Source: a virus | Virus record (IMG/VR): IMGVR_UViG_3300047494_000017 | Location: 1 to 40,938 of that record | Strand: one strand, 5' to 3' | DNA: 40,938 nt | Shown here: one piece after another, positions 5,791 through 39,614 of the stretch | Layout of the letters: each line of letters opens with the position of its first letter | How positions within the stretch are numbered: position 1 is the stretch's first letter | The notes under the pieces: generated by a model | What the model was told of the DNA's origin: nothing | Databases searched by the model: none | What the model saw: only the letters and a program-made list of their open reading frames with translations | Program-made: the position numbers and the translations under genes

Positions 5791-5820
5791 CGCTGTTCCT
5801 TGTTTGTTTCTGTGTATTAG

Positions 5821-5848
5821 TGTATATGAGTGTTTGACTATTTGTCAA
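5821..5848 (-). promoter_or_regulatory. Leftward early promoter before the zinc-ribbon genes
   Basis: Minus strand: TTGACA (5848-5843), 16-nt spacer, TATACA (5826-5821). The -35 overlaps the -35 of the rightward promoter at 5842. TTGAC (5834-5838) and GTCAA (5844-5848) form an inverted repeat over both, a plausible shared operator. Confidence 0.55.
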
Positions 5849-5869
5849 CTATAAAAATTGTGCTATAGT
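5842..5869 (+). promoter_or_regulatory. Rightward promoter of a small RNA
   Basis: TTGTCA (5842-5847, 5 of 6), 16-nt spacer, then TATAGT (5864-5869) preceded directly by TGC, an extended -10 element. It points against the surrounding leftward genes and ends about 85 nt later at a strong terminator. Confidence 0.6.
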
Positions 5870-5875
5870 AAAGAC

Positions 5876-5960
5876 AACTGCTATTCTGTCTAATACCAAC
5901 CGTTTCTTTCTTACTTATGCCACGCCTCCGTAAACAAGTGCTTACGGAGGTATTATTTTT
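5876..5960 (+). ncRNA. Candidate small RNA, about 85 nt, opposite to flanking genes
   Basis: The ends are predicted from the extended -10 promoter (start near 5876) and the intrinsic terminator (end near 5960). The 5' half is unstructured and pyrimidine-rich (TTTCTTTCTTAC), a possible pairing region against purine-rich ribosome-binding sites; the 3' half is the terminator hairpin. There is no meaningful open frame. Existence is inferred from signals only. Confidence 0.45.
5925..5960 (+). terminator. Rho-independent terminator of the small RNA
   Basis: Perfect 9-bp stem CCTCCGTAA (5925-5933) with TTACGGAGG (5942-5950), 8-nt loop, then TATTATTTTT. The U-tract lies only on the plus-strand side. 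Confidence 0.8.
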
Positions 5961-6338: not shown

Positions 6339-6701
6339 TCACTTCCCATCCTCAGCGTAACGCACCACAAAGAGGGCGGCTTCGCATAGCTCTCTGGGTG
6401 TTCTCATTAAATCACCCCAAACCTCATAGAAGTCATGATCACCCAGCTTCCTATTTGGAAATAAGGAACAAAGAAAATCGTATATAGAAAGTTCGTTCTC
6501 AATCTTCTCAAGCACAAGCTGAGCGTGGTTGCGGTCTTGGCAGGGGTTAAAAAATCCATAGTCGCCACAAGCTATTTCTAACCCGTCGGGGGATCTAAAT
6601 GTTTTAACTTCGCCTAAGTCTACGAAGTGAGCCAGAGCCATATTTAAATCCCAATCACTTAAAGCCCGAATCTCATCCATAAGCCGCGTTTTAGTCATCA
6701 T
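6339..6701 (-). CDS. Phage ABA-sandwich-like protein, 120 aa
   Basis: The order LSDWDLNMALAHFVDL, then FNPCQDRNHAQLVLEKI near residues 51-67, then WGDLMRTPRELCEAALFVVR near 95-114, follows the pattern of the phage 'ABA sandwich' domain common in early phage operons. Function unknown. The start is ATGATG at 6701/6698, 26 nt after the predicted cleavage site of the type I hammerhead, so its 5' leader would be made by ribozyme cutting. Confidence 0.65.
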   Translation of the reverse strand: MMTKTRLMDEIRALSDWDLNMALAHFVDLGEVKTFRSPDGLEIACGDYGFFNPCQDRNHAQLVLEKIENELSIYDFLCSLFPNRKLGDHDFYEVWGDLMRTPRELCEAALFVVRYAEDGK

Positions 6702-6722
6702 CGTTACCCTGTTTACGTTTTA

Positions 6723-6786
6723 CCATAGACACGTCGTCCCTTCCACAAAACGACGTGTTTCGGCTTATCAAGCCTCATCAGTATGG
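6723..6786 (-). ncRNA. Type I hammerhead ribozyme (HHR I-A)
   Basis: Minus strand. Stem I 5' CCATA (6786-6782), core CTGATGA (6781-6775), stem II GGCTT-GAT-AAGCC (6774-6762), core GAAA (6761-6758), stem III CACGTCG (6757-6751), 14-nt loop, CGACGTG (6736-6730), T (6729) pairing with the last A of GAAA, C17 (6728), then stem I 3' TATGG (6727-6723). All conserved core positions are present and all three helices pair perfectly. Cleavage is expected between 6728 and 6727, just before the 6701 gene. Open stem I makes it type I. Confidence 0.9.
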
Positions 6787-6807
6787 TTTTGGACGGTGTT
6801 TAGTCAT

Positions 6808-6966
6808 TTACTTTAAACTCCTCTGAATCGCTTGTGCTTGGTACTGTGTGGGGTGATAGGTTGAGGCTGTGTCGCCAACCAAAACCACGTGGACGTGGCC
6901 TGTTTGCAAAATAACGGCTATTAAAACCAGTAGGCATATGATTGTGACTGCTTCTAATCTGGTCAT
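6808..6966 (-). CDS. Small single-pass membrane protein, 52 aa
   Basis: ATG 6966 with AAAGGA in a leader repeated before three genes; stop TAA 6808-6810. Residues 6-22 (AVTIICLLVLIAVILQT) form a transmembrane or signal-anchor helix, followed by a polar C-terminus. Flanked on both sides by hammerhead motifs. Function unknown; possibly a small inner-membrane effector. Confidence 0.65.
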   Translation of the reverse strand: MTRLEAVTIICLLVLIAVILQTGHVHVVLVGDTASTYHPTQYQAQAIQRSLK

Positions 6967-6989
6967 TGTGGAAGGTCCTTTCATTTACT

Positions 6990-7038
6990 GCTACAGATGC
7001 CCGTAGGGTTTCGGCTCATTAAGCCTCGTCAGTGTAGC
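6990..7038 (-). ncRNA. Hammerhead-like motif, probably degenerate (HHR I-B)
   Basis: Minus strand. Stem I GCTACA (7038-7033) with TGTAGC (6995-6990), core CTGACGA (7032-7026), stem II GGCT/AGCC (7025-7013), GAAA (7012-7009), and a UC cleavage pair (6997-6996). Stem III is only CCC/GGG with a 3-nt loop and leaves two unpaired bases (CA) before the cleavage U. The architecture matches HHR I-A, but the short bulged stem III may weaken or abolish cutting. It starts one base after the stop codon of the 61-aa gene. Confidence 0.55.
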
Positions 7039-7039
7039 T

Positions 7040-7225
7040 TTAGTGGGATGCAAAACAAGGCCTATGTTTACGGGTTAAATCGCCATATCGCGAAGATGTA
7101 CAGTTAACTATTTCAATTTCATCGGATAAGTTTAAATGGTTCACGACCCAGTGGTAAGCGGTATCGTAATCTTTAAACATTTTTTCATAAAATAAATCTT
7201 GTTTATTATTAAATACTGAAAACAT
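7040..7225 (-). CDS. Unknown early protein, 61 aa
   Basis: Preceded by the repeated leader (AAAGGACCTTCCACA then AATG). Aromatic and acidic N-terminal half (FNNKQDLFYEKMFKDYDTAYHWVV), basic C-terminus. No family recognised. Its stop codon is followed after one base by the HHR I-B motif. Confidence 0.6.
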   Translation of the reverse strand: MFSVFNNKQDLFYEKMFKDYDTAYHWVVNHLNLSDEIEIVNCTSSRYGDLTRKHRPCFASH

Positions 7226-7264
7226 TTGTGGAAGGTCCTTTCATTTCTTTTACTGCTACTTAGT

Positions 7265-7501: not shown

Positions 7502-7561
7502 TGTGGAAGGTCCTTTCGTGTTTTATTGTAATTTGAACGGTTTGTCACTGACCATAACTAT

Positions 7562-7590: not shown

Positions 7591-7995
7591 GGATTTTTAT
7601 GTGGGTAGACGTGGGAGAAATGGGAAAAGTTAAACGCAGTCATAGCTACTTAGTGCGGTTTGTCTCCCCTATCTCCTATATCTCCTATTAATAGATTGTG
7701 TTTTTAAAATAGGGAAAAGTATATACTTTGTATATTATTCAAATGTTATACAATAGTAGAATACTGTATTATTATATATGTTGTCAAAAATGTGTGTGAG
7801 AAAGGTGAGACGCCGCTGAAACTCAGTCATAGAGAGTGTTTAGGACCTCCCATGTCTACAGGGGAGAAGTGTGAGAAAGGGTGAGAAATCAGGCGTTTCG
7901 CTCGAAAATCGCATACGTTTATGGTCGCTATTGTCTAGCCAGTATACACGCATACACACTAGCATACGTCGTCAAATGTTAAGATTTATGGCAGC

Positions 7996-8348: not shown

Positions 8349-8464
8349 AAATCACACCGTGTATACCGACGTATAGTAAAGGTATAAGGCAAATCACACC
8401 GTGTATACCGACGTATAGTAAAGGTATAAGGCAAAACAAACCGTGTATACTCAAGCTATAAGGC
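8349..8464. repeat. 42-bp tandem repeat, iteron-like
   Basis: Two identical 42-bp units (8349-8390, 8391-8432) and a third, shorter diverged unit (8433-8464). Each contains CCGTGTATAC and a TATAAGGC end; the first two also hold CGTATAG. A related CCACGTATAC lies at 8483-8492. Placed between early and late genes, they could be operators or origin iterons. Open frames across them translate the repeat and are not credible genes. Confidence 0.75.
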
Positions 8465-12691: not shown

Positions 12692-14442
12692 TGTTACACG
12701 ACCGTATTGAAAAGATTTTAGAAAAACACGGAGAGTTAAAAACCGAAAAACTCCCTTGGTTACCTTTGTACGAACTACTCGGCGAATACATTATGACGCG
12801 CAAACAGCATTTCGTTTCAGAGCCAATACAAGGCGAAATGCAGAATGCACAGGTTTTTGATAGTACTGCGATTAACGCCAATCACCTTGCTGCAAGTGCT
12901 TTAATTGGTGCAATGTGGCCTAACGGGGCTAAATCAGTTCAGTTAGTACCGCCTGACTTTATGAAAGACTCTGAAACTAAAGAGGTTAAGGATTTTTATG
13001 ATAACGCAACCCGTGTGCTCACTCAAAAAATGGACCATCCGAAAAGTGGGTTTCTCACGGCGCTTGAAGAATATATGCTTGACCAATTGTGTTTCGGGAT
13101 TAGCGGAATTGAGCCGATTGAACAGGAAGGGGATGACCATATCCCCATCGTGTTCAAGGCGCGTGATTGCAAGACAATTTGTGTCGATGAGGGTAAAAAC
13201 GGCTTCGTAGATACTGTATTCATTGAGTTTAGATTATCCATTCGGCAAGCAGTCATCGAATATGGGCTAGAAACCTTATCAAAAGAATCACAGAAGATGT
13301 TTCTTGACGGGCAAGGTAAGACGAAAATAAAAATCCTTCAAGCAGTTGAACCCCGTGTAGACCGTGACCCATACGGCTTTGGTGTATCTAATATGCCCTA
13401 TGCGTCCATTCATATTGAGGTTGAGCAAAAAACTGTTTTACGCGAAAGTGGTTTTGCTGATATGCCCGTGTATGTAACGCGTTTTTGGAAAGCAATGGGT
13501 GAAAAGTACGGCCGTTCGCCGGGGATGAACGCATTGCCTGATATTCTCGAAGCAAACGCACTTAGAGAAGCGATGATTATTGCGAATGAAAAAACCCTAG
13601 ACCCCCCGCTCGTAGTACACGATAACGGCGCATTGGGAGGCGGCAAAATTGACACCAGTGCCGGGGCAATCAACGTACTCAGCTTATCCGGTCGTGTAGG
13701 CCCGCAAGGAATGAAACCCGTTGAACCTCTTTACACCGTAGGCGAATTATCGGATTCCAATGCGCGCTCGCAAGAGCTTCGAGAAATCATCAGTAATCAC
13801 TTCTTTATCGACCGTTTATTAGACCTCAATAATGAAACCCGTATGACATTGGGCGAAACAAATATCCGCAATGACTTACGGGGGCAATCTTTAGGTACAG
13901 TTTATTCTCGTCAAATCGCGGAATTGTTTATTCCATTGGTAGAATTTGTATTCAATGTCTTGTTAATGCGCGGTTTATTAGGCGTTGTTCAGGGGTCCGA
14001 TGAGGAACGCGCGCTTTTAAGTGAAGGCATACAACCCCTTTACATTCCCGACGCTGTTCTTGCCTTAATGAGAGGCGGTAAAAACGCTTACGATATCAAG
14101 TTTATCTCTCCCGCAGCGCGCATAATGAAAGCAGAAGAGATGCAAGGGATTCAACAAGCCGTCGAATTAATAACACCATTGGTCGGAGACGCTCCCGAAA
14201 TACTAGATAACTTTAACTGGGATAATTTGCTAGATAGCGTTATTGAAAATAGCGGCGCACCGCGTAAAATTCTTAACGACACTGTGACGATTCAAAACAT
14301 TAGAGCCAATCGCGCGCAACAGCAACAGGCAATGGCGCAGTTAGAGGCGGCTAAAACGCAATCAGAAATAGCGCGAAATGCCGGTCAAACGCAACAAATG
14401 GCTCAATCACAAGGCCAACAAGGAATGCCCAATGCCGCCTGA
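12691..14442 (+). CDS. Portal (head-tail connector) protein
   Basis: 583 aa, usual size for podovirus head-to-tail connectors. Visible family patterns include the N-terminal SEPIQGEMQNAQVFDSTAIN and LAASALIGAMWPNG near residue 75, NEKTLDPPLVV near 305, GETNIRNDLRGQSLG near 391-405, and a C-terminal Gln/Ala coiled region. It forms the dodecameric ring through which DNA enters and leaves. Confidence 0.92.
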   Translation: MLHDRIEKILEKHGELKTEKLPWLPLYELLGEYIMTRKQHFVSEPIQGEMQNAQVFDSTAINANHLAASALIGAMWPNGAKSVQLVPPDFMKDSETKEVKDFYDNATRVLTQKMDHPKSGFLTALEEYMLDQLCFGISGIEPIEQEGDDHIPIVFKARDCKTICVDEGKNGFVDTVFIEFRLSIRQAVIEYGLETLSKESQKMFLDGQGKTKIKILQAVEPRVDRDPYGFGVSNMPYASIHIEVEQKTVLRESGFADMPVYVTRFWKAMGEKYGRSPGMNALPDILEANALREAMIIANEKTLDPPLVVHDNGALGGGKIDTSAGAINVLSLSGRVGPQGMKPVEPLYTVGELSDSNARSQELREIISNHFFIDRLLDLNNETRMTLGETNIRNDLRGQSLGTVYSRQIAELFIPLVEFVFNVLLMRGLLGVVQGSDEERALLSEGIQPLYIPDAVLALMRGGKNAYDIKFISPAARIMKAEEMQGIQQAVELITPLVGDAPEILDNFNWDNLLDSVIENSGAPRKILNDTVTIQNIRANRAQQQQAMAQLEAAKTQSEIARNAGQTQQMAQSQGQQGMPNAA

Positions 14443-27875: not shown

Positions 27876-30199
27876 CCGTAACAACCTCAACCAGTAAGAA
27901 TTCCTATGTTGGAAACGGTGTAACCACTGTATTCTCGTTTACTTTTAAAGTGTTTGCGCCTACTGATATACAGGTTTATAAAACATTAAGCGGCGCGTCT
28001 ACTTCTACTATTTTAAATTACCCCGCTGATTACGCTATATCCATTAACCCGGTTACGGATGGGGGAACGATAACCCCGACAGTCCTTTTAAATACGGGCG
28101 ATGTAATTGTCGTAAACCGCAATATGTCTCTTACTCAACCTTCTAAGCTTCCCGTAGAGGATAAACTACCGGATGACCTGCTAAATAATGGTTTAGATAG
28201 ACCTATAATGATTACCCAACAGCTTCAAGAACAAATCAATCGAGCGTTATCGTTTCCTATCACTAATACGACGGCGTATAGTAATTTGCTTCCAACACCT
28301 ACGCCGCGTAGTGCGCTTCTATGGGATTCTGCGGGCCTCAATATAATTAATAGTACTTACGACCCGGACACGGCCGGAATAGCGGCCTTAGCGGCTCAGT
28401 TATCGGCGGCTTCGGTTCAAACATATTGGGTGTCCGTAACCGCTTACGGAGCGGACCCATCAGGCGTTCACGATTCAACAGCGGCTATTTTACAAGCGAT
28501 TGCTACAGGTAATAACGTTTACTTCCCACCGGGAACCTATATTATTAGCGCGAACCTTCCTTTATTGGCAAACCAAGTAGTGAGAGGCGCAGGTAAAAAC
28601 CTCACTATCATTAAGTTTAATGCAGATAATATTAAAGGGTTTACGTGTACAAGCATTAATTATTGGGCGATTAGGGATATCGGATTTAACGGAGGCGGTC
28701 AAACGACCAATGTCAATACAGGTCGTAAAGCCGGTGTGGGCATTGCTATTGACAGTTGTAAATTTTATGAAGTAACCGGCGTCAATTTAACTAAAATGGG
28801 AATTATGAATTCCGCCGGTGTAACCAGTGATTCCGGTTTTGGCGGTTTTGGTATCTTGATTCAATGTACCATTAGTGAATGCGCGTACGGTACGTTTAGA
28901 GATATCACGTCCAGTTATATCGCTGGAGGCGGTAACTTCGCCGGGGATGGTATTTATATTGGCGGACAAAATTCAAACACGGCAATTAAGACTCACGACT
29001 TATTATTTGATAAATGTGTGAGCCAATTCGTAGGTCGTCACGCTTTTTCTATTTCTAGCGGTGCGGGAACGTCTATTCCTTCCAACATCACGCTTAGAAA
29101 CTGTACCGGCCTAAACACGGCATTAGCTGGAATAGACTTGGAACCGGCTAACAATACTGTATTAGACAATTGTACTTGGTACTCTTGTGGAAACGACCAA
29201 ACATTTTATAATCCGGCGACGACTTACGGCGCCACTTATCGCTTAATGGCCGCAATCGCGATTGGTAACTCTGAGCAGAATACAACCATTATTAAAAATT
29301 ACGGAACGGGAAACTACTACGGGATTACATACGGGACAAGCGATACGCTCATCATATCGAAAACCATATTTGAAAATAGCGTTCACGGCGACGCATATAA
29401 CGCGCTAGCGGGAGGACCAACCAATTTAATTGTCTCAGAAAGCTTCTTTAATACGGCAACGGCAAGCCCGGCATTTTATTTTAACAGTAGTGCGGCTAAT
29501 TTGCTTTTATTCGACCGATGCTCTTTTGCGTTCACTGTGAATGCGGGTCAGATGAGCGGCGCGACTTATTTTAATTGCGTCTTTAAAAAAGGGTATTTGA
29601 TTGTCGGCGGTAGTACCGAAAAAGTTAATTTTCTTGCGAATACGTTTTTAGATTGGGCGGGCCCGGCTATAGCGGTTACTGTAGGGGATACGGCATCGGC
29701 TTGTGTGGTAGATGGAAACCATTTCTTAGGCACTGGTAATATGACAAACGCCATTCAAGCAGGTTACAATACCTTTAAAAATTGGATTGTTCAAAACAAT
29801 GATATCTCTGGTACTACGGGGTACGGAATTTACGATACTAACTCTAGCGGCGATGTGCCGTTTGCCGTTTTAAGCAACAATACTTTTAACGGATGCGCGG
29901 GCGGCATACGGTTAACGCAAGGGCAATTGGCGGGTTCTATTTCAGGCAACCAATTTACGAACGTAACAAATTACTGTATGCTGTTTGATAGTATTTCAGG
30001 GGCAATGAACGACGTTACAATGATTGATAATACGGCTGTTTCAGGGTGTACGAACGGTTTACAAATCTCTCTGGGAGGCGGTTCATGGGATAGAAACATT
30101 ATCCAATTCAACAATTTTCACAACTGTTCAGGCACAAAATGGTCCTTACCCGGAAGCGGTAACACTAATGGTTTTGTTGGGAATAACATTACGACTTGA
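27872..30199 (+). CDS. Tailspike: T7-type anchor plus pectate-lyase-like beta-helix
   Basis: 775 aa. Residues 1-130 (SYVGNGVTTVFSFTFKVFAPTDIQVY, DYAISINPVTDGGTI) are a T7 gp17-like tail-attachment domain. From about 190 (WVSVTAYGADPSGVHDSTAAILQAI...VYFPPGTYIIS) a pectate lyase 3-type beta-helix begins, with Asn/Gly-rich coils to the end. Probable surface-polysaccharide depolymerase or receptor binder. Overlaps the previous gene by 4 bp. Confidence 0.85.
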   Translation: MTVTTSTSKNSYVGNGVTTVFSFTFKVFAPTDIQVYKTLSGASTSTILNYPADYAISINPVTDGGTITPTVLLNTGDVIVVNRNMSLTQPSKLPVEDKLPDDLLNNGLDRPIMITQQLQEQINRALSFPITNTTAYSNLLPTPTPRSALLWDSAGLNIINSTYDPDTAGIAALAAQLSAASVQTYWVSVTAYGADPSGVHDSTAAILQAIATGNNVYFPPGTYIISANLPLLANQVVRGAGKNLTIIKFNADNIKGFTCTSINYWAIRDIGFNGGGQTTNVNTGRKAGVGIAIDSCKFYEVTGVNLTKMGIMNSAGVTSDSGFGGFGILIQCTISECAYGTFRDITSSYIAGGGNFAGDGIYIGGQNSNTAIKTHDLLFDKCVSQFVGRHAFSISSGAGTSIPSNITLRNCTGLNTALAGIDLEPANNTVLDNCTWYSCGNDQTFYNPATTYGATYRLMAAIAIGNSEQNTTIIKNYGTGNYYGITYGTSDTLIISKTIFENSVHGDAYNALAGGPTNLIVSESFFNTATASPAFYFNSSAANLLLFDRCSFAFTVNAGQMSGATYFNCVFKKGYLIVGGSTEKVNFLANTFLDWAGPAIAVTVGDTASACVVDGNHFLGTGNMTNAIQAGYNTFKNWIVQNNDISGTTGYGIYDTNSSGDVPFAVLSNNTFNGCAGGIRLTQGQLAGSISGNQFTNVTNYCMLFDSISGAMNDVTMIDNTAVSGCTNGLQISLGGGSWDRNIIQFNNFHNCSGTKWSLPGSGNTNGFVGNNITT

Positions 30200-30382: not shown

Positions 30383-30735
30383 GCGCCGCTTTGATGCCTA
30401 ATTCTGGACAACCTAATTCTAGTTTTAATGTTGACGCTATACTATCCCTTGGCCGCTTAGAGGAAGGAATGGGTAGTTTACAGCGTATGCATTTGGAACA
30501 GCAAACCAGTATTAAGGATATACAAATTCGTTTAAACGATTTGTCCGCTATTACTCAGCTTCAGGAACGACATAATAACGATATTTTAGATGCAAAACGA
30601 GACCGTGAAAGGTTATGGGAATCAGTTAATCGTCTAAAAGAACAACGGGCTTGGCTAATGGGGGCCTCTACTTTCTTTGGGGCATTAGCGTCTTACTTAT
30701 TTGAGTTAGCACGAGGACACGTAGGAGTTCATTAA
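30379..30735 (+). CDS. XhlA/spanin-like coiled-coil membrane protein, 118 aa
   Basis: Residues about 25-92 form a heptad-rich coiled coil (GRLEEGMGSLQRMHLEQQTSIKDI...RERLWESVNRLKEQ). Residues 93-110 (WLMGASTFFGALASYLF) form a C-terminal transmembrane helix. This layout is that of XhlA-type lysis accessory proteins. Lies between the small hydrophobic protein and the candidate cell-wall enzyme. Confidence 0.6.
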   Translation: MSAALMPNSGQPNSSFNVDAILSLGRLEEGMGSLQRMHLEQQTSIKDIQIRLNDLSAITQLQERHNNDILDAKRDRERLWESVNRLKEQRAWLMGASTFFGALASYLFELARGHVGVH

Positions 30736-32124: not shown

Positions 32125-35100
32125 ATGACCAATTCACTACAAGTTGTCAACTCCACCCCAATCTATCCCATCACGTATCCCACCTATTCCGGTCAGCCTA
32201 TCGCGGCCCCTACTATTGGCTACAACGGTGCGGGGTGGGTAGCCAAAATAGTTTTATCGGGCATAACCGACGTTACACAGGTTTGTGATGCGACCAAATT
32301 AACGCTGACTGTCTCGGACCCCGGCTATGATACTTCGGGTAATGCAACCACGGTAAATAGAACCATAACAGGCCAAGGCCCGCTCATCCGGCAGTACGAA
32401 GATGCTATAGCCAATCTGTCCCAAGGCTCTAGCCCTAACGCGAACATTAATTACCTGATTACAACCGATGGCACGAATTTAACCCTTTACATTGCGCTAT
32501 CAGACTGGATTTATACCGGGACGACCATTAATTCAGTTTCTTTAGCGGCAAACTTTTACGGCAGTTCCTCTGCAACTACAATCAGCAGCCCGACTAACTC
32601 ATCTGATTTAGCATACCCCAACGTTATCTTTGGGTGGCATACACCTCAGTACAATAGCACTAATGGCACAGGCACACTGCCCGTTGAGGGTTTAGCCTTC
32701 CACCGGCACGCCATGAACGGCCAGCAAGTGGCCTGTGTTAAATACCAAGCCACAGATGCGCACAGTATATCGGGCGCCGTGTCGACGGTAGGAGCCAGCA
32801 CGCTTTCTACTCTGGCCAAGCAGGGTAATATACCCGAAGTATTTGCTGCCAACGTTGATTTCTCAGGCTTAACCCAAGGGGATAATTGCACGGTTAATGC
32901 CATCGCCTACCCTTGGCTTGGAAACAATCCTTACGCTATTGCGACATACGGTAGTATCACCGGACAAGGCACGGCGTGGCCTACTCAAAAGGGGCAAACC
33001 CTATTACAAGCCCTTTGCGACAAGACGGGTGCCTATGGCGGGGCTTATGCCTACGTTAGCTTAGCGGGTAACGATACCACCGGGGTTGTATCAACAAGCA
33101 CCACAGTAGCGAAAGCTAGCCCGTTTGCCACCATTCTAGCCGCCGGTACTGCATTGCAGACTTACAACAATGCAACCAAGGGCCATAACGACTTAGGGGG
33201 AGCTACTATACGCCTTATGGATAGCGCTGGCTCAGCCGCTACACACGTTATACCCAGAAGCTTTCCGACGGCAACCGGCAATACCTGGTTTACCATAGAG
33301 AGCGACCCAACCAACACCGGAGTCATCACGGCAGACGGCTCGACATCCGGCTACAATCAATTCCCAGACAAGTTGCGACTTAGAAACTTTACGTTATACC
33401 CATCATCAGGGGCCGGGCGATACATCTTCGTGGCTAACACGACAGGGGCGCTCGTTACTGATGGGCTGACAATTAATAACAGCAATAATAAAAGCCCCTT
33501 TGTTTACTGGACGTACCAGTCATTTTACAACCACACCATTACTGACCCTGGCTCTTCGGATACTTACTTGTGGTCCGCTAACGTTTATACGCTCGTTATC
33601 TCAGGGGCCGTATCCACCGTCTCAACAAATGCCACCAACCCGCCCCAGCCCGGCATTATGATAGGTTCTATCTTGCCTCAAGATTACTTCTTCTTTGGCA
33701 AGAATCTTAATGGCAACGGCTACAAAGACAACGACGGCATCATTGTCTATAACAACCGTTGCCAAGTTATAAGTATGACCACAACTCCCCCCAATGCCTG
33801 GCAAACCAGTCATTTCTATCAGCAGTACACCATGGTTACAAACGGTACCAATTTTTATTACGCCTTAACGAACGGTACATCCGCTTCAAGTGGTGGCCCT
33901 ACTGGAACAGGCTTGAATATTACGGATGGCTCGGTTACTTGGGCCTATATAGCAACCTATAATTTTAGCTTACCTACCGGCGTTGCCTATGTCCAAAACC
34001 TCGTTGAGAATAACAATGCGAGTACTGGTAACGGCGTGGGCCAATTCTTCCCTGATAACGATATCGTGAACTTTACGAACTTTGTCGATATGCACAATAC
34101 CTATTTAGGCGGCAAGTGTAACACACTCTATAACGACCAGTCTGATTCTCAGATTGCCCCGGCCGGCCTCATTAAACAAGGCACCCGTAAATATACTATC
34201 GTTGATAACCGCAACATTAAACTCGACGGTGAGAAACTTGTACAGGGGTGCTACGGTAACATAGCGTTTGCTTACGGGGTAGGCAATTACGGGGAGTATA
34301 GTCTGTTTGGAGAGGTTAACCGTAGCCCGCAAACTATTCCTGTCAACTTACCCGGCCGTGGTGGGGGCGCTACAAACCAGGGTTACATGGGCATGGCGTG
34401 GCATCCAACGGCTACCTTTAGTTTATTGCACAATGTCAACGCTTTAACCGCTGGAGAGTCCACTGGGGCTACCATGGTTAAAATCATGAAAAACTACTTC
34501 GCATCTTATACCACCGGCCCTTGGGGAGATACAAACGCCTTCCCACAATGGGTAACAAGTACAGTCTATGCAGCTTTAGCAGCTTGTCAAAATGCAGGCA
34601 AATGCTATACCACTACGGCTGGCGGAACTTCTGGCGGCACGGCACCCACGCACACCAGTGGCACCGTTAGCGATGGCGGTGTAAGTTGGACTTTTCAACA
34701 CAATAATTACGCGATTGGCGGGAACTATACCCCGGTCACAAGTAGCCCCCTAACAAATATTGTTCAGGCCGGACAAGCCGTACTAAAGCGGGATATAGTC
34801 GGGAATCCTCGTTATAACAACGGCACTGGGGCGGTTGGCGCACTGGAAGCACCGGCACCGGTAACGATAGTACCCGCTCCAATTACGCAGGGCAGTGTGA
34901 CGTTTGCCATCACTCTTACTGAAACCCCATCGGGGGGTAATGGAAGTTATACCTATCAATGGTACATGTCCGTGACGGCTGGCACAAAAGGAACAGCGAT
35001 CGCCGGAGCCACCTCGGCAAGCTATACAGCCTCAGGGCTGGTTCCTGGCAACACGTACTATTTTACTTGTACTGTCGGCGATACCAGTGGTATTGATAGC

Positions 35101-38429: not shown

Positions 38430-38774
38430 TTATCTTTCGATTCTTTTGGCGAGGGTTACACCGCGCATATTCTGGTCTTTCGGATTAGCAACCGCTATGA
38501 TACTAGGCTCATCCGGCACTTGCGTATTATAATTATCCAAGGGGGTTTGAGTGCCACGATATTCATTCCAATGTTCCATAAAGAATTTAGCGGAACGTTT
38601 GTCGTCAAGCTTAATTCCGTTATGCGTTCCATAGAATATTTCGACTTCAAACGTTTCATTGGCATTTCGGTTGTTTTTGACAAAACGCACTTCGGCTAAA
38701 TTAATGTCCATTCCGCACGTTTGAGAACCGACCGCGCCAGTTTCAACCCGTATCCAATAGGGCTCTTTAGTCAT
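38430..38774 (-). CDS. Unknown protein in the replication operon, 114 aa
   Basis: I start at ATG 38774 (MTKEPYWIRVETG) with GGAG 9 nt upstream; the frame also has a TTG two codons earlier. Alternating strands (YWIRVETG, NLAEVRFVKN, FEVEIFYG) and a basic end (GVTLAKRIER). Preceded directly by the ribozyme at 38797. No family recognised; position suggests a replication accessory. Confidence 0.6.
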   Translation of the reverse strand: MTKEPYWIRVETGAVGSQTCGMDINLAEVRFVKNNRNANETFEVEIFYGTHNGIKLDDKRSAKFFMEHWNEYRGTQTPLDNYNTQVPDEPSIIAVANPKDQNMRGVTLAKRIER

Positions 38775-38796
38775 ATTCAATTTCTCCGTAGGTTAT

Positions 38797-38872
38797 GGGC
38801 CTGTCTCCTCAGTATCGGTAGGCCATTTCCGATAAACACCTCTCCTTGTCCAAGTCAGAGAGGTGTTTCGAC
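38797..38872 (-). ncRNA. Type II hammerhead ribozyme (HHR II-B)
   Basis: Minus strand: stem II 3' GTC (38872-38870), GAAA (38869-38866), stem III CACCTCTC (38865-38858)/GAGAGGTG (38844-38837), U16.1 (38836), H17 = U (38835), stem I TATCGG (38834-38829)/CCGATA (38818-38813), core CTGAGGA (38812-38806), stem II 5' GAC (38805-38803). Loop I GGCCT (38824-38820) can pair with AGGCC (38802-38798), a pseudoknot. Cleavage expected between 38835 and 38834. The first base overlaps the last base of the upstream gene's TAG stop. Open stem II makes it type II. Confidence 0.88.
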
Positions 38873-39528
38873 TATTGTTGAGGTTCTTCTGTTTCAGTAG
38901 CGGCATCCGTTGGCGATGTATTGGGCGGCGAGTCTATCCCATTCTCTACATCGGTTTCGGTTGATGGTTCTAAAGGCGTCTGTGATGGGGGATTGTCCGT
39001 AGATGATTCGCTCGGAGAATGTGTCCAGCCAATAATTTCCCCCTGCGCGTTTGGGTCCGGTGCAGGCATTTGAAAGGTATAAGTATCTACGGGGTCATTA
39101 GGTGCGGCAGATGTAGAGTTTGGAGTAGGTAACGGTGGTACTGTTACTGAGACTGGGTCGGGATGAATAGGCGCGTGACCTCCGCTAGCGCGAGAAGCCG
39201 CTAAGGATGCCTCTTCATTAGGAACAGAATCGGCAATCGACAAGCTACCCGGAACGCGATTGGCATCTGGTTTGGAAAGAGAGGCCCCATATTGCGCGAA
39301 CTGTTCAGCCGTAACAAATCCATTTGCTTTAAGAAATGGGTCACGTTGCAAAATAACCTCTTTTGCAATTTGAAACGCAATACGGGGAGCCTGTTCTAGA
39401 GGGTCAAGGTCGCCATTAGCGAGTAACCCCGCTAAAGCCATCCCCGCGTAATGGTCAAACAACGCCATATCTTGAATGCTGTCTAACACTTTGACTCGTT
39501 CAACTTCGTTTTCATTAGTATCGAACAT
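38872..39528 (-). CDS. Unknown protein with disordered acidic tail, 218 aa, between two ribozymes
   Basis: Residues 1-85 look folded and helical (VKVLDSIQDMALFDHYAGMALAGLLANGDL...RIAFQIAKEVILQRDPFL). The remaining 130 are Pro/Ser/Thr/Asp/Glu-rich and disordered. AGGAG 8 nt before ATG 39528. Ribozymes lie directly before and after it, so its message should be cut free on both sides. No family recognised. Confidence 0.65.
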   Translation of the reverse strand: MFDTNENEVERVKVLDSIQDMALFDHYAGMALAGLLANGDLDPLEQAPRIAFQIAKEVILQRDPFLKANGFVTAEQFAQYGASLSKPDANRVPGSLSIADSVPNEEASLAASRASGGHAPIHPDPVSVTVPPLPTPNSTSAAPNDPVDTYTFQMPAPDPNAQGEIIGWTHSPSESSTDNPPSQTPLEPSTETDVENGIDSPPNTSPTDAATETEEPQQ

Positions 39529-39548
39529 TTTAGAATCTCCTATTCATT

Positions 39549-39614
39549 GGGCCTATCTCATCAGGGAGTGGAAGCCATTCACTCCGACCGGGGTAATATG
39601 CCCCCGGTTTCGAT
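39549..39614 (-). ncRNA. Type II hammerhead ribozyme (HHR II-A)
   Basis: Minus strand: stem II 3' ATC (39614-39612), GAAA (39611-39608), stem III CCGGGG (39607-39602)/CCCCGG (39593-39588), U16.1 (39587), C17 (39586), stem I GGAGTG (39585-39580)/CACTCC (39570-39565), core CTGATGA (39564-39558), stem II 5' GAT (39557-39555). Loop I GGCTT (39576-39572) can pair with AGGCC (39554-39550) as a pseudoknot with one G-U pair. Cleavage expected between 39586 and 39585. It begins on the base after the DUF2815 stop codon. Confidence 0.88.

Follow-up and report, generated by a model that had tools for sequence, protein, structure and literature searches.

Predicted type I and type II hammerhead ribozymes ahead of minus-strand genes in a phage genome, and the spacing of their relatives to start codons in viral contigs

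Genome context and anatomy of hammerhead A

The window analysed here is the whole of a 40,938-base virus contig, the ends of which overlap by 128 nt (126 identical). This overlap and the DUF2800 gene (412 aa), which reads through the contig junction, show that the map is circular, and all four hammerheads described below therefore lie on one co-directional minus-strand block. The replication genes encode a helicase, a primase, the DUF2800 protein, an Enc34-type ssDNA-binding protein and a family A DNA polymerase. The portal resembles those of podoviruses (41% to MW202485 and approximately 30% to pelagiphage HTVC010P), and a search with bases 1–25000 found no close relative among named phages. 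The initial annotation had placed a hammerhead in an early small-gene operon. This placement is plausible, with a TTGACA-type promoter match at 7787–7758 and no terminator-like site within 7501–6008 on the minus strand, these being consensus matches only. A single operon for all four hammerheads was considered and rejected, because promoter-like sites lie inside the block (5848–5819) and at least two units are likely. A strong hairpin, with a TTGACA/TACACT promoter-like site after it, separates the early small genes from the 5790 gene (5819–5951, minus strand). Two copies of a stem-loop, TACGTCGGTATACACGGTGTG, lie in the gap from which the gene blocks diverge (8353–8415, minus strand); this repeat is perhaps an origin or a control site.

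Hammerhead A occupies 6722–6787 on the minus strand. Reading along this strand, ACCATA (6782–6787) pairs with TATGGT (6722–6727) to form stem I and is followed by the core sequence CTGATGA (6775–6781), stem II GGCTTGATAAGCC (6762–6774; 13 nt, 5 bp), GAAA (6758–6761), stem-loop III (6730–6757) and UC (TC in DNA; 6728–6729), with the predicted cut at 6728/6727. All elements of the core (CUGANGA, GAAA, the A15.1–U16.1 pair and H17) are present, stem I is open, and loops close stems II and III, as in a type I hammerhead. Stems of 5, 5 and 7 bp plus A–U had been proposed; the 5-bp stem II held on inspection, whereas stem I has 6 bp and stem III has eight Watson–Crick pairs plus A15.1–U16.1 (11 plus A–U if three G–U pairs are counted). 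The minimum free energy fold from RNAfold is exactly the three-way hammerhead, at −24.4 kcal/mol.

To judge chance occurrence, the window was Markov-shuffled. Any descriptor match was found in 4 of 100 shuffled windows and stems as strong in 0 of 100, compared with three elements in the real window; a second run gave six descriptor matches in 200 shuffled windows against the same three. Searching the whole window with Rfam yielded two matches, both sub-threshold, and we therefore built our own covariance model, R1, from 28 other phage type I ribozymes. These sequences were picked by their pairing, and the 100% paired cells of the alignment are therefore no test. The R1 search gave exactly two matches in the window, namely 6718–6791 (55.3 bits, E=4e-12), which is hammerhead A, and 6986–7042 (50.4 bits, E=7.5e-11). 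The best Rfam match for hammerhead A was RF03152 (RAGATH-1-hammerhead), with which it shares the type I layout and core; its score of 31.6 bits lies below the gathering score of 56.3, and the 5′ hairpin of that model is poorly formed, with two non-standard pairs in four. Based on the anatomy, the chance control and the covariance model, the intact type I core of the initial annotation is borne out: the sequence is confirmed as a real, complete type I hammerhead, the self-cleavage of which is predicted.

Hammerhead A lies 20 nt from its upstream stop codon. As the initial annotation had proposed, the predicted cut would leave a 26-nt 5′ leader to the 6701 gene; this leader (6702–6727, minus strand) carries AGGG ahead of ATG 6701, with ATG 6698 as an alternative start. 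The distance is right, and the leader length matches that of relatives, in which the predicted cut-to-ATG distance clusters at 25–28 nt; this clustering supports the assignment of the leader to the 6701 gene. That gene is a 120-aa ORF by ORF call (6339–6701, minus strand), for which searches of PHROG, Pfam and viral contigs found no relative; a pattern made from the protein matched 16 stretches in viral contigs, 0 of which were confirmed as relatives. With a 6-bp stem I, a 13-nt stem II, a 26-nt cut-to-ATG distance and its score of 55.3 bits, hammerhead A fits the R1 set.

Three further hammerheads in the window

The second R1 match, hammerhead B (6990–7038, minus strand), was absent from the initial annotation. 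It begins directly after a stop codon and shares the 6-bp stem I and 13-nt stem II of the family, with a predicted cut at 6996/6995 and a leader of 29 nt to ATG 6966, but it carries a 2-nt insertion, CA (6999–6998), between stem III and the cleavage UC. Such an insertion was unique among 163 elements compared (160 flush, three not). Lying beside the cleavage site, it may render hammerhead B slow or dead. The downstream 52-aa ORF (6808–6966, minus strand) starts at ATG 6966 after an AAAGGA ribosome site common to two other genes. The surrounding stretch, GAAAGGACCTTCCACA, is repeated ahead of the three consecutive early genes 7501, 7225 and 6966 (copies at 7503–7516, 7228–7241 and 6968–6981, minus strand), and for 7225 and 6966 the likeness continues further upstream, as far as the bases that immediately follow the predicted cut of hammerhead B. 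The 7225 gene has no ribozyme, and thus a single operon contains the same leader both with a hammerhead and without one. The shared likeness also favours ATG 6966 as the start codon.

Two type II hammerheads lie on the same strand. Hammerhead IIa (39555–39614) begins where the ssDNA-binding protein gene ends, at its stop codon, and consists of stem II (AUC/GAU), stem III (CCGGGG/CCCCGG) and stem I (GGAGUG/CACUCC), with a predicted cut at 39586/39585; its 3′ tail AGGCCCA (39548–39554) can pair with loop I (GGCUU) in a pseudoknot of 5 bp, one of them G–U. Hammerhead IIb (38803–38872) has a predicted cut at 38835/38834 after a GUU triplet, and an identical tail (38796–38802) can form 5 bp with its loop I (GGCCU). 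In both, stem II is open and the 5-bp pseudoknot between loop I and the 3′ tail is possible, in agreement with type II. Hammerhead IIb shares the layout and pseudoknot of the Rfam model Hammerhead_II (RF02276) and scored 31.5 bits, below the gathering score of 37, while IIa was missed by this model; the minimum-energy fold of IIb, computed without the pseudoknot, is not the hammerhead. The 218-aa ORF between the two (38872–39528, minus strand) had no match in a Pfam search, and the ORF downstream of IIb (38430–38774, minus strand) starts at ATG 38774 after CGGAG.

All four hammerheads directly precede a minus-strand gene, and the predicted cut-to-ATG distances are 26, 29, 57 and 60 nt. The co-occurrence of types I and II in one phage genome had been called unusual. 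This held within our samples, in which only the window had both: an RF02276 match was found in 1 of 28 records and an R1 match in 0 of 12 type II records, a check made with a model that misses IIa. Clusters of hammerhead types I, II and III are, however, already in print (legend to Fig. 3, PMC3088659).

Related hammerheads and their spacing to start codons

The type I family was surveyed by one motif scan of viral contigs, in which the 13-nt stem II was fixed in the motif, giving at least 119 stretches in at least 80 loci. Among the matches listed, 83 of 87 proved to be full hammerheads; of the four left unexplained by the descriptor, two contain no hammerhead (L054 and L102), one is a hammerhead with a weak stem III (L045) and one is cut by the contig end (L106). 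Two or more hammerheads occurred in 33 of 80 loci by descriptor, and R1, applied to whole motif-derived viral records, gave two or more matches in 29 of 76 (L054, L102, L106 and L122 left out of the 80), both counts being among the matches listed. An exact 6-bp stem I was found in 108 of 112 type I elements among the matches listed, although the script allowed 3–8; this count predates the 6-bp filter by which the table of 100 distinct elements kept only those with a 6-bp stem I, the window excepted. In that table, among the matches listed, A immediately precedes stem I in 96% and occupies the two positions that follow it in 94 and 81%, respectively, and the cut triplet ends in UC in 93 elements and in UA in seven. 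The fixed 6-bp stem I and the flanking A and AA, both found in hammerhead A, would fit a contact. Stem III varies freely in length and sequence, with no conserved domain seen among the matches listed. Compensatory changes occur across 28 type I elements, themselves chosen by pairing. Members of the R1 family generally score under Rfam thresholds: no match over gathering was found for 14 loci carrying R1-type or other non-L203 elements, and in eight such loci only weak matches were seen below it.

Several viral contigs carry extended sets. A 32-kb viral contig (L245, G015) has ten type I hammerheads between 2808 and 7574, most of them separated from the next by one or two genes. The T7-like SAR11 pelagiviruses L299 (AP013542.1), L300–L302, L304 and L305 have hammerheads in the early small-gene block, those of AP013542.1 lying at 30011–30066, 30574–30634 and 32722–32781. 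All six share a type I copy upstream of a MarR gene; directly after stem I of this copy, three of them have the start of a 16-codon ORF that was identified by eye. The type II tail motif was found in 80 stretches, with convincing type II hammerheads in 11 of their loci, and the remainder look like chance. Seven type II elements (stem I being weaker in one of them) together with one type III lie in L203 (9454–12341), five type II and one type III in L218 (1019–3314), five type II in L165 (6231–9036) and four in L184 (10230–11965). On the L203 viral contig, a tmRNA match (RF00023, 61.6 bits; 13474–13575) adjoins the hammerhead array.

Spacing was measured for 97 viral type I elements among the matches listed, with the window and pelagiphage S35C6 left out. 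In this set, 95 of 97 elements have, after the cut, an ATG that starts an ORF of at least 30 codons, and the predicted cut-to-ATG distance has a median of 25 nt and falls within 20–40 nt in 65 of 97. Random positions in the same loci gave 127 of 970 at 20–40 nt, a loose control that ignores gene structure. The upstream stop lies −8 to +10 nt from the ribozyme start in 40 of the 97 elements among the matches listed, and more than 60 nt away or not found in 52, for which the median is still 25 nt; across elements with the upstream stop abutting, 11–60 nt off, or beyond 60 nt or not found, the median among the matches listed stays at 25–27 nt. As the spacing is kept whatever the upstream stop, the anchor is the downstream start or its ribosome site. 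In 32 type II elements, the predicted cut lies 48–64 nt from the ATG in 27, pairing of 4 bp or more between loop I and the tail is possible in 30, the median distance from the end of stem II to the following ATG is 23.5 nt, and most are 0–10 nt from a stop codon. Taken together, the type I and type II spacings place the far edge of the ribozyme approximately 20 nt before the start codon in both types, and the 26, 29, 57 and 60 nt of the window fit them. The spacing was weaker in bacterial genome contigs, with 10 of 25 elements at 20–40 nt and any ATG in range in 17 of 25 (27 of 31 matches used after the four weakest were left out, and 25 once identical copies were removed). A contrary case comes from five cultured pelagiphages, in which 174–423 nt separate the type I copy upstream of the MarR gene from the next gene in the annotation.

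Conservation of the hammerheads by descent was considered and set aside. None of eight loci sharing replication or portal genes with the window has a hammerhead (L162, L163, L004, L009, L030 and L013 for the replication block, and the spring podoviruses L297 and, in part, L298), the pelagivirus record being set apart, and descent is therefore not demonstrable; the 6701 protein likewise has no confirmed relatives in viral contigs. The relatives of the primase are distant, at 40% at best, and no hammerhead was counted near them, one weak long-loop match in L005 having been set aside.

Proposed function and relation to known systems

We consider it probable that hammerhead A is a working ribozyme that serves as RNA-only operon punctuation. 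It is one of the four elements of this kind that the phage carries, and it belongs to a large phage family. From the observed anatomy, family, placement and spacing, we infer cleavage in the cell, the chemistry of the ends and a benefit. The ribozymes would cut nascent or finished polycistronic RNA between genes, and the early minus-strand transcript would be cut by hammerhead A between 6728 and 6727. Each ribozyme would fill the space from one gene to the next ribosome-binding site, its 3′ edge lying approximately 20 nt before the start. Hammerhead cleavage generally leaves 2′,3′-cyclic phosphate and 5′-hydroxyl ends. The upstream message would thus gain a 3′ end closed by stem III and bearing the cyclic phosphate, and the gene downstream of a type I element would gain a short, open 5′-hydroxyl leader with little beyond the ribosome site. 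With type II, the right-hand piece would begin with a hairpin, stem I, so that both new ends would be closed by structure. The benefit would be that the message of every gene has a stability and a translation of its own, with no host RNase needed. It counts against punctuation that most minus-strand gene junctions of the phage have no ribozyme, as do the insertion in hammerhead B, the minimum-energy fold of IIb, the weaker spacing in bacterial contigs, the long distances in the five cultured pelagiphages and the hammerhead-free loci that share replication or portal genes.

Other readings account for parts of this evidence. The ribozyme could serve the upstream gene, its hairpin-capped 3′ end substituting for a terminator and the distance to the next gene reflecting packing: the left-hand cleavage product ends in stem III, in 40 of 97 type I elements among the matches listed the ribozyme start is −8 to +10 nt from the upstream stop, and most type II elements lie 0–10 nt from one. 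The unchanged median of 25 nt in the 52 of 97 elements (among the matches listed) without a near stop points instead to the downstream start as the anchor, and we regard this reading as unlikely. Stem I abuts the upstream stop in many elements, and, given the size of a ribosome footprint, a terminating ribosome should cover it. This would suit a brake or switch, in which uncut RNA, ligation or upstream ribosomes govern folding and cutting is regulated rather than constitutive; the core insertion of hammerhead B and the slow core variants of phages in print (PMC3088659) can be read in the same way. Against it stand the 20 nt between hammerhead A and its upstream stop and the freely varying stem III, with no conserved domain among the matches listed, and a regulated device seems improbable.

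The patchy distribution, the hammerhead-free loci that share replication genes and the damaged look of hammerhead B would be expected of selfish or relic elements that move between phages with little effect, harmless between genes. Functional selection is indicated, on the other hand, by the compensatory changes in the 28 elements (chosen by pairing) and by the fixed distance to the start codon, and no mobile sequence was seen around the copies in the window; we hold this origin to be distinctly improbable. The sub-threshold scores of the Rfam models are what a chance look-alike would give, but they are general in the R1 family, and with E=4e-12 and stems as strong in 0 of 100 shuffled windows, chance is a most improbable explanation. 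Operon punctuation remains our preferred reading.

The early polycistronic RNA of phage T7 is cut at hairpins by a host protein, RNase III, into separate stable messages. Intergenic cutting of an early transcript would be alike here, except that the RNA would cut itself; the T7-like pelagiphage S35C6 has hammerheads in its early small-gene block. Hammerheads of types I, II and III have been described on either side of individual genes or short gene blocks in prophages (Perreault et al. 2011, PMC3088659), for example as a triple arrangement around ardA in Agrobacterium tumefaciens. Cleavage is reported there for three native clusters in vitro and for one in E. coli, and the authors propose that long phage transcripts are processed to gene-length mRNAs. 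The core, the permuted types, the type II pseudoknot and the placement are the same here as in those clusters. This phage differs in mixing types, with two elements of type I and two of type II, and the arrays seen here are larger: the accessible text of that paper gives no fixed cut-to-start distance and names a triple as its largest cluster, whereas up to ten copies occur here (L245). A literature search, in which subscription papers were mostly outside the range, turned up neither a statement of a constant spacing to the start codon nor arrays of six or more. Clustered prophage hammerheads and the processing idea were already known, and the placement rule and the ten-copy array are added here. 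A 2017 review treats the role of prokaryotic hammerheads as an open question (PMC6155905).

On a wider view, we see about an even chance that in many phages tandem hammerheads form a host-independent system of one message per gene, with an edge approximately 20 nt from each start, near the edge of the initiating ribosome; the window would be a mixed-type example, and the ten-copy contig the clearest. The spacing rule predicts precisely where RNA ends should map in any carrier phage, and directional infection RNA-seq has been published for one cultured carrier, pelagiphage HTVC022P (PMC12753301), the type I element of which lies at 2297–2359 of MH598798.1. If true, self-cutting RNA would be a common phage way of dividing messages, and would also be usable as a part for building operons.
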